Notes under the pieces: model-generated
The model's input: only the letters and a program-made list of their open reading frames with translations
The model's database searches: none
Told to the model about the DNA's origin: nothing
Assembly (NCBI RefSeq): GCF_005082365.1
Contig: NZ_CP034900.1
Coordinates: 310,001-374,000, forward strand
Origin: Buchnera aphidicola (Artemisaphis artemisicola)
GTDB taxonomy: Bacteria; Pseudomonadota; Gammaproteobacteria; Enterobacterales; Enterobacteriaceae
Length of the DNA: 64,000 nucleotides
Reading direction: 5' to 3'
Shown: positions 24,616-27,247 of the stretch, piece after piece
How the letters are laid out: every line of letters begins with the position of its first letter
How positions within the stretch are numbered: position 1 is the first letter of the stretch
Program-made: the position numbers and the translations under genes

Positions 24616-25578
24616 GTGATTAAAAAAATTGGAGTCTTAACTAGTGGTGGGGATGCTCCAGGGATGAATGCAGCAATTAGAGGAGTTGTTAGAACAGCCT
24701 TAAGTGAAAAACTAGAAGTATTTGGTATTTATGATGGATATCTAGGTTTATATGAAAACCGAATGGTAAATTTAGATAGATACAGTGTATCTGATATGAT
24801 TAATAAAGGTGGAACTTTTTTAGGATCAGCTAGATTTTCTGGTTTTCATAATAACGTAATACGTTCTATTGCAGTAAAAAATTTAAAGAAAAGAAAAATA
24901 GATGCTCTTGTTATTATTGGAGGAGACGGTTCTTATATAGGAGCCCAAAAATTAACAGAAATGGGTGTTCCATGCATCAGCATTCCTGGCACTATAGATA
25001 ATGATGTTGCAGGTACTGATTATACAATAGGTTATTTTACAGCCTTGCAAACAGTTGTAGAAGCCATTGATAGATTACGAGATACTTCTTCTTCTCATCA
25101 ACGTATTTCTATAGTAGAAGTAATGGGAAGATATTGTGGTGATTTAACGTTAGCTGCAGCTATTGCTGGAGGATGTGAATTTATTGTACTACCAGAAATT
25201 CATTATACTAAAGAAGAATTAGTTATTGAAATACAAGCAGGTATTGCTAAAGGGAAAAAACATGCTATCGTTGCAATAACAGAATATATTTGTGATGTAG
25301 AAAAATTAGCACAATATATTGAAAAAAAAACATATAGAGAAACAAGAGCAACTATTCTTGGTCATATTCAAAGAGGAGGTCCTCCAGTAGTATACGATCG
25401 CATATTAGCTTCAAGAATGGGTGCATATTCAGTAGAACTATTAATTAAAGGTTATGCAGGAAAATGTGTTGGAGTTCAAAATGAGCAAATGGTTTTCAAT
25501 GATATAAAAAATGCATTAAAAAACATGAAGCGTCCTTTCAAAAAAGATTGGTTAATTACTGCTAAAAAGTTATACTAA
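24616..25578 (+). CDS. pfkA: 6-phosphofructokinase I
   Basis: ATP-dependent phosphorylation of fructose 6-phosphate, 320 residues, the same as E. coli PfkA. It starts with GTG behind an AGAGGTTTTA ribosome-binding site. The ATP loop is [15 protein letters not shown], followed by GGDGSYIGA near 102. The catalytic aspartate is in [16 protein letters not shown] (about 127), and the substrate block [11 protein letters not shown] is near 167. A GC-rich hairpin follows the stop codon. Confidence 0.99.
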
Positions 25579-25663: not shown

Positions 25664-26479
25664 ATGACAATTTTTAGAAAAAAAAATATCATACAGCAAT
25701 GTTTTTTTGAGTTTTTTGGAACAGGTCTGATAGTGTTTTTTGGAATAGGATGTTTAGCTGCTTCAAAATTAACAAATGTTAGCTTTAGTCAGTTTGAAAT
25801 AAGTTGTATTTGGGGATTAGCAGTATCTATATCAATTTATTTCAGTTCTTCAATATCTGGAGCTCATTTAAATCCGGCTATTACTATTTTTTTTTGGTTG
25901 TCTTCTAAAATTAATAAAAAAAAAGTTTTACCGTATATTTTCTCTCAAATTTTTGGAGCTTTTTTTTTTACAACATTAATTTACTTTCTTTATTATGATT
26001 TATTCATTTTATTTAAAAATAAAAATAATATTATTATAGGAACTCAAGAAAGTCTTAATTTAGCCTCTATTTTTTGTGTTTATCCTAATTATAAAAATAG
26101 CTTTATTTATGATATTCTTGTCGAAATTTTTTCTACTGCTTTCTTTATGATTATTCTTTTAGAATTTAATAATAAAAAAAATATTTTTTTTTTATATCAC
26201 AACTCTATACTACCTATTTTAATCGGAATATTAGTTTGCATGATTAATCTAGTTATTACTCCATTGAATAATATAAGTTTAAATCCAGCTCGTGATTTAG
26301 GTCCTAAAATACTTTTAAGTCTAACTGGATGGGGTTTTTTTGCTTTTAGTGGAGGAAATAGTAATTTTTTATATTGTATTATCCCTATAATAGGACCTAT
26401 TCTAGGAACTAATTTAGGAGGTTGGATCTATAATAAAGTTATAATAAATAATTATCAAAAAAAAAATAATTTTTTATGA
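25664..26479 (+). CDS. glpF: glycerol facilitator-like aquaporin with altered pore residues
   Basis: Inner-membrane channel of the MIP family, 271 residues, six membrane segments and two half-helices. Both NPA motifs are intact (GAHLNPAIT, about 67-75; SLNPARDLGPK, about 205-215). Aligning with E. coli GlpF, the selectivity filter W48-G191-F200-R206 becomes W50-N195-I204-R210. Two of the four filter residues differ, so the substrate may not be plain glycerol. There is no glpK nearby. The 3' end overlaps convergent tpiA by six bases. Confidence 0.93.
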   Translation: MTIFRKKNIIQQCFFEFFGTGLIVFFGIGCLAASKLTNVSFSQFEISCIWGLAVSISIYFSSSISGAHLNPAITIFFWLSSKINKKKVLPYIFSQIFGAFFFTTLIYFLYYDLFILFKNKNNIIIGTQESLNLASIFCVYPNYKNSFIYDILVEIFSTAFFMIILLEFNNKKNIFFLYHNSILPILIGILVCMINLVITPLNNISLNPARDLGPKILLSLTGWGFFAFSGGNSNFLYCIIPIIGPILGTNLGGWIYNKVIINNYQKKNNFL

Positions 26480-27247
26480 AAAAATCATATTTTCAGATAT
26501 ATTTATAATATTAAAAAATTGTTTTGCGTCTAAAGATGCATTTCCAATTAATAAGCCGTCTATATCTGGTTGCTTTAAAAAATCTTTAGAATTATATTGA
26601 TTAATTGATCCACCATATTGAACAATTATGTCTTTTATATTAATAGGATCATGTTTTTTAATATATTCTTTGATAAATATATGTATTAATTGTACATCTT
26701 TAGGATGAGCTGATAATCCAGTACCAATAGCCCAAATAGGTTCATATGCAATAACTGTGTTTCTAAAAGCTAATTGTCCTGAATTTTTAAATATAGAATC
26801 TAATTGTTTTTCAATAACCTTTTTTGTTTGACCATTCTTTTTTTCTTCAGCTGTTTCACCTATACACAAGATAGGTATTAAATTTAGTTCTTTAATTAAA
26901 TTAAATTTTTTTGCAATTAAATCGTTAGTTTCATAATGAAATAAACGTCTTTCAGAATGTCCAATAATAATATATTTTACTCCTATATCTTTTAACATTA
27001 AAATAGACGTTTCTCCGGTAAAAGCTCCTTTAAGATTAAGATCTACATTTTGTGAGCCAAGAAAAATATTATTAATATTACTAATAATTTGTCTTACGCG
27101 TTCTAAATAAACATTAGGAGGACAAATGACAATGGTATTTTTCTTTACATAATTAGAAAAATACAATTTTAAATATTCAAAAAAACTAGAAATCATTGTA
27201 ATATTTCCGTTCAATTTCCAATTTGCAACAATTAAAAATTTTTTCAT
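26474..27247 (-). CDS. tpiA: triosephosphate isomerase
   Basis: Glycolytic isomerase, 257 residues (E. coli 255). Catalytic residues are in place: K11 in VANWKLNG, H97 in IIIGHSERR and E169 in VIAYEPIWAIGTG; the phosphate loop YGGSIN and the GLLIGNASLDAKQF tail follow. A clear AAGGTGA ribosome-binding site precedes the ATG. Its stop codon lies inside the last codons of glpF on the other strand, leaving no room for a terminator. Confidence 0.99.
   Translation of the reverse strand: MKKFLIVANWKLNGNITMISSFFEYLKLYFSNYVKKNTIVICPPNVYLERVRQIISNINNIFLGSQNVDLNLKGAFTGETSILMLKDIGVKYIIIGHSERRLFHYETNDLIAKKFNLIKELNLIPILCIGETAEEKKNGQTKKVIEKQLDSIFKNSGQLAFRNTVIAYEPIWAIGTGLSAHPKDVQLIHIFIKEYIKKHDPINIKDIIVQYGGSINQYNSKDFLKQPDIDGLLIGNASLDAKQFFNIINISENMIFS

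Follow-up and report, generated by a model that had tools for sequence, protein, structure and literature searches.

The 64,000-nucleotide stretch of Buchnera aphidicola (Artemisaphis artemisicola) DNA analysed here, referred to below as the window, carries a gene (25664-26479) that is, judged by its sequence, the glpF of Buchnera, an orthologue of the channel protein GlpF in which two of the four residues of the selectivity filter have been replaced. The sequences show a constrained change, apparently with one origin, in a channel of a familiar type, for which altered selectivity is the leading reading; entrenchment with function unchanged and partial decay are serious competitors. With slightly less than even confidence, we propose that the filter of this orthologue was rebuilt and then selectively kept, giving a channel that passes water and small neutral solutes and prefers glycerol less.

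The glpF gene and its locus

Comparison of the window protein with PF00230 gave 145.6 bits against a gathering score of 25, which places it in the MIP superfamily, and a PF00230 search of the whole Buchnera (Artemisaphis artemisicola) genome, which comprises 641 kb in two contigs, the second being a leucine plasmid, found no second MIP. Among the records compared, this plasmid comes closest to those of Buchnera from Macrosiphini aphids (83.4% to the one from Acyrthosiphon caraganae). The gene lies between pfkA and tpiA (Table 1), and both a PfkA and a TpiA frame were present at the glpF locus in all 37 loci checked. When solved structures were ranked by sequence, E. coli GlpF (1fx8) came first (E 1.3e-69) and the top four were all GlpF, followed by AQP10, AQP3 and AQP7 and then by AqpZ; ranking by structural superposition also put GlpF, AQP7 and AQP3 ahead of AqpZ. 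The score with TIGR00861, the NCBIfam GlpF subfamily model, was 165.7 bits (cut-off 171.25). That with the AqpZ model NF003838 was 85.1 bits against a cut-off of 256, and the F-H-T-R filter is absent, so that the protein is not of the AqpZ type.

The positions of Froger that distinguish glycerol facilitators, which we take to be Y108, D207, K211, P236 and a non-aromatic residue at 237, read Y, D, K, P and I in the window protein and thus carry the glycerol-facilitator signature. Where enterobacterial GlpF has the filter W-G-F-R, the window protein has W-N-I-R. The partnership with GlpK that goes with the GlpF type was likewise not found: as originally predicted, there is no glpK in the window, and a search for glpK-type kinases (FGGY_N) gave no match anywhere in its genome, nor was an FGGY kinase found in any of the seven Buchnera genomes tested.

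Table 1. Positions in the window of glpF, its neighbours and the residues discussed in the text.
Feature	Position	Strand	Remarks
pfkA	24616..25578	+	upstream neighbour of glpF
glpF	25664..26479	+	271 aa; PF00230 E 2.4e-42; only MIP channel found in genome
Filter position 1, W50 (GlpF W48), unchanged	25811..25813	+	codon TGG; W in 30/33 genus rows
First NPA motif, N70-A72	25871..25879	+	N, P and A each in 33/33 rows
C138-V139, replacing GlpF S136-T137	26075..26080	+	C in 33/33 at 138; V20, I10, T2, A1 at 139
Filter position 2 (H5), N195, replacing GlpF G191	26246..26248	+	codon AAT
N203-I204-S205, replacing GlpF G199-F200-A201	26270..26278	+	from alignment
Filter position 3, I204 (GlpF F200)	26273..26275	+	codon ATA
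Second NPA motif, N207-A209	26282..26290	+	each residue in 33/33 rows
Filter position 4, R210 (GlpF R206), Arg in window protein	26291..26293	+	codon CGT
tpiA	26474..27247	-	convergent neighbour; shares last 6 bases of glpF

Filter residues and predicted fold

Pairwise alignment with E. coli GlpF matches W48 with W50, G191 with N195, F200 with I204 and R206 with R210, the same four residues that had been named as the filter in the original prediction. The alignment is gap-free from the N195 column to the second NPA motif, and the two-residue difference in length between the proteins sits upstream of the N195 column. The substitutions also hold when Buchnera and enterobacterial GlpF sequences are aligned over the run around this motif; a shift that would restore G and F is ruled out by the gap-free GlpF alignment together with the MAFFT alignments. 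The interval first given for the altered filter, 26245-26300, covers the right region and starts one base early, codon 195 beginning at 26246.

Both NPA motifs are intact in every genus row, and the fold, which had also been expected to be preserved, is predicted to be so. An AlphaFold2 model of the window GlpF (mean pLDDT 87.1), for which 43 own and related sequences served as input, superposes on 1fx8 with a Z of 37.6 and an rmsd of 1.3 Å over 254 residues at 44% identity. The equivalents of H66, D207 and K211 are unchanged in the window protein. The replaced pair C138-V139 presumably lies in loop C.

Distribution of the change in the genus

PF00230 matches were found in 35 of the 36 genus genomes. 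In the remaining genome (G018, locus L036) the locus contains pfkA and tpiA and shows no GlpF-like frame; the plasmid stretch of this genome is identical to that of the Buchnera of Pentalonia nigronervosa. In two others, G028 and G031, glpF is split into separate open frames, and with these three genomes set aside 33 rows could be aligned. Column 195 reads N in 32 of them and H in one, and column 204 reads I in 30 and V in three, so that all 33 are without the G and the F of GlpF. At column 50 the three rows without W have C (two) or L (one), and column 210 is R in 25, H in seven and Q in one. Fragments of the two split copies likewise read N, I and H. Beside the filter, N is found in all 33 rows at column 203 (GlpF G199), S or T in 32 and V in one at column 205 (GlpF A201), and C throughout at column 138 (GlpF S136).

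An in-frame ATG is present at the usual start in 29 of the 33 copies. The four without one (L005, L006, L009 and L020; near 1489-1515) may reflect slippage, recent damage or sequencing error, and in L005 and L009 the glpF ATG and the coding frame are out of register on either side of a poly-A run. Altogether, glpF is lost, split or start-less in seven of the 36 genomes; in the other 29 its frame is open and begins with an in-frame ATG.

Comparison outside the genus and origin of the change

A MIP match was present in 98 of the 149 genomes of the family search. Outside the genus we read 53 sequences, namely the 30 best-scoring, 20 from lower in the list and three from tiny genomes; fragments or weak matches of G063, G071 and G138 (L070-L076) were left out of the counts. 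G and F are both present in all 52 of the GlpF-type sequences read, and the 53rd (L087) is AqpZ-like, with FHTR. In a separate set, which includes no Buchnera record and consists of the best 80 of 335 named relatives, 51 of the 53 loci from Enterobacterales and Photobacterium (L099-L151) read WGFR, and none of the 27 more distant loci (L152-L178) has N at column 195. Ordinary variation within the family is ruled out by these two counts as the source of the Buchnera filter.

The two exceptions among the 53 named loci, WGFS in the Arsenophonus of Aphis craccivora (L144) and SGFR in the Arsenophonus of Aleurodicus floccissimus (L123), are independent filter changes. In two other tiny genomes (L068 and L069) glpF adjoins a kinase and retains G and F; filter position 1 of the L068 copy, which stands beside its own kinase, is Ser (SGFR).

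One of the 52 sequences, L067 from genome G053, comes from a Buchnera that shares 93.6% identity over its plasmid stretch with the Buchnera of Neophyllaphis podocarpi; G183, the other known member of its genus, has no MIP match. L067 resembles the window in its pfkA-glpF-tpiA order, in the same kind of host and in the lack of any FGGY kinase that we could find, and differs from it in an unaltered WGFR filter. Kinase loss alone therefore did not drive the filter change, and the loss of glpK can be dismissed as its sole cause. On a tree built from PfkA and TpiA, in which the outgroup L067 forms a long branch, parsimony requires two changes at position 195 (one on the stem, and N to H in L027), four at 204 (one on the stem and three from I to V), two at 210 and three at 50. 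Because all 33 genus rows are changed and all 52 outside GlpF-type rows are unchanged, the simplest account of the sequences is a single origin of the filter change in the stem lineage of this Buchnera group, after its split from the Neophyllaphis-type lineage.

Constraint on glpF and on its new residues

Within three groups that together take in 30 of the 33 rows, pN/pS is 0.325-0.359 for glpF, 0.061-0.145 for pfkA and 0.279-0.443 for tpiA; glpF is under purifying selection, much less constrained than pfkA and in the range of tpiA. By parsimony, the five codon changes at 195 include a single amino-acid change, the five at 203 include none, and the 12 at 204 include three, all between I and V; the median over the 255 glpF columns is four amino-acid changes. 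In a rough neutral simulation of 20000 runs, with one HKY model from 132 fourfold sites, no run kept N195 in 32 of 33 rows, or N203 or I/V204 in all 33; when the class allowed at 204 was widened to I/V/L/M/F, 0.035% of runs matched. N195, N203 and I204 are retained by selection, for function or for stability.

These measures bear on the idea that glpF is simply decaying, with selection relaxed in the absence of glycerol catabolism and the filter eroding. One lost and two split copies among 36 genomes, the four of the remaining 33 in which the usual start lacks an in-frame ATG, the replacement of Arg by His or Gln in eight of 33 rows and of W50 in three of 33, and a pN/pS well above that of pfkA are all in keeping with decay. 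We nevertheless regard it as improbable, since pN/pS lies far under 1 in all three groups, the NPA motifs are kept in every row, N195 and I204 are conserved far beyond the neutral expectation, and most genomes (29/36) retain an open glpF frame with its ATG in register.

A possible but doubtful explanation is that, in an endosymbiont with a small population, drift together with AT-biased mutation fixed G191N, F200I and G199N, and that the protein is a general glycerol/water facilitator still. The new residues would pack together and be hard to revert, and their conservation would then reflect stability. That three neighbouring changes were fixed together suggests compensation, and the loss of small residues is common in this protein, the enteric-invariant Gly being retained at 13 of 21 columns and Ala at three of 16. 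The steps from G to N and from F to I would require only AT-ward or AT-neutral changes, which would also speak against a re-specified filter. The unusual constraint on N and I after the change runs counter to fixation by drift, although such entrenchment predicts that too, and the columns that were replaced while L067 still kept them are weakly over-represented at the filter. The latter point derives from 107 near-invariant columns, at each of which 48 or more of the 49 free-living rows share one residue. At 18 of them, including 195, 204, 203, 205 and 138, that residue never occurs in the 33 Buchnera rows. L067 keeps 79 of the 107, and six that it keeps are changed in all 33 rows (138, 195, 204, 205, 221 and 253), and two of these six belong to the four positions of the filter (one-sided Fisher 0.027). 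When the test is not limited to columns kept by L067, the enrichment is not significant (Fisher 0.13). The proposal of a rebuilt and selectively kept filter is itself weakened, because of the lost, split or start-less copies and because glpF is looser than pfkA.

Predicted selectivity of the altered channel

Buchnera has discarded most transporters, and a channel that most of this group retains without its substrate pathway should carry something useful or at least tolerable. With the GlpF of E. coli (1fx8) and of other enterobacteria, the Buchnera protein shares the fold, the NPA motifs, W48, R206 and the positions of the D207/K211/P236 type; it differs in the replacement of G191, G199, F200, A201, S136 and T137 and in having no glpK partner that was found. 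According to the portions of PMC6937295 available, W48 and F200 of GlpF make up a hydrophobic corner in which the backbone of glycerol is held, the mutation Y212A at the F200 position of AQP3 cuts glycerol to 51% and opens the channel to urea, and human AQP10, which has Ile at this position, passes glycerol at 0.94 of the AQP3 value with a urea/glycerol ratio of 1.29. The same portions state that ar/R filter residues alone do not predict selectivity. Excerpts of PMC12471668 place G191 away from the GlpF lumen, note that it is usually omitted in filter analysis, and put the AQP10 filter at roughly double the width. Buchnera GlpF is thus like AQP10 in its Ile at the F200 position, from our alignment and from excerpts of both papers, and unlike it at positions 1 and 2, where the excerpts of PMC12471668 give AQP10 Gly (G62 and G202) and Buchnera has Trp and Asn.

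The original prediction held that the channel may favour something other than glycerol. Its premises, namely two replaced residues, intact NPA motifs and predicted fold, and no glpK, all stand, and the expectation of altered selectivity is plausible; the phrase "other than glycerol" is too strong, because AQP10 with Ile conducts glycerol (PMC6937295, in part), a result that also favours fixation by drift. By analogy, glycerol preference is probably reduced, and glycerol flux is not necessarily abolished.

Under the proposal of a rebuilt filter, a step on the stem would have taken W-G-F-R to W-N-I-R, with G199N, A201S/T and S136C alongside, and purifying selection would have followed. Loss of F200 would remove the W48/F200 aromatic corner that gives GlpF its glycerol preference, and with F200 gone Asn195 could turn its polar side chain towards the pore, at about the place that His occupies in AqpZ. 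The filter of E. coli AqpZ is F43/H174/T183/R189 (PMC3287591, in the part available), and both proteins would by this analogy have a polar H5 side chain and a non-aromatic position 3; they differ at position 1, which is Trp in Buchnera and Phe in AqpZ, and the score of the Buchnera protein with the AqpZ model is far below the cut-off. The outcome would be a more polar, less discriminating filter for water, ammonia, urea and glycerol. Flow would be passive; since no glycerol-phosphorylating enzyme was found, it would probably run outward or serve osmotic balance. A change placed on the stem, an unaltered L067 and a natural step from Arg to His together make a ready natural set of filter variants for transport assays, and the channel offers a route, open to testing, by which aphid and symbiont may exchange small solutes.

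It is also conceivable, though very improbable, that GlpF serves as an exit for glycerol that cannot be phosphorylated, the cardiolipin synthase reaction being one that releases glycerol. In the available text of PMC12356351 cardiolipin synthase is reported as the sole remaining phospholipid-synthesis gene, and PLDc_2 (Cls-type) matches were found in 40 of the 40 genomes tested. The failure to find an FGGY kinase in the seven Buchnera genomes tested fits such a role. So does PMC3246468, a passage of which describes the Buchnera MIP as a channel for glycerol, water and NH3, present in two of four strains. The PLDc_2 matches, which represent putative Cls, persist in the MIP-less G018 and G183 and in the split-copy G028 and G031, so no co-loss is seen, co-retention of glpF with cardiolipin synthase is rejected, and the filter change would be left unexplained. 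The words selectivity, aromatic and NPA are all absent from the accessible part of PMC3246468, and the part of the review PMC6912568 available to us does not mention Buchnera. Titles and abstract openings of the open-licence papers listed on Buchnera glpF or aquaporin and on endosymbiont aquaglyceroporins make no mention of the Buchnera GlpF filter, and in what was accessible of the open-licence literature on Buchnera glpF or aquaporin we found no transport measurements on the protein.

Replacement of Arg210 in the Aphis-type clade

R210 was replaced by His at the base of a nine-genome Aphis-type clade (support 100/99). All seven readable copies in the clade have His210 (L022, L023, L027, L029, L030, L032 and L033), and the fragments of the split copies L034 and L035 also read NPAH, and so carry His in the same clade. 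This replacement may make the filter looser still; two of the copies in the clade are split.

We advance a bolder version of our proposal as rather unlikely: in Buchnera of the main aphid group, the sole aquaglyceroporin would have changed from glycerol uptake to a symbiosis channel, with W-N-I-R as a new type of filter, for the exchange of water or small nitrogenous solutes with the host cell, and the W-N-I-H protein of the Aphis type would be a bacterial MIP that functions although its filter has lost the arginine. If this is true, W-N-I-H would directly test the need for the arginine in excluding protons and cations.

The first 3000 bases of the L022 plasmid are identical to those of the Buchnera of Aphis craccivora. 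Gln210 occurs in L018 alone, and over its plasmid stretch L018 is identical to the Buchnera of Melanaphis sacchari.
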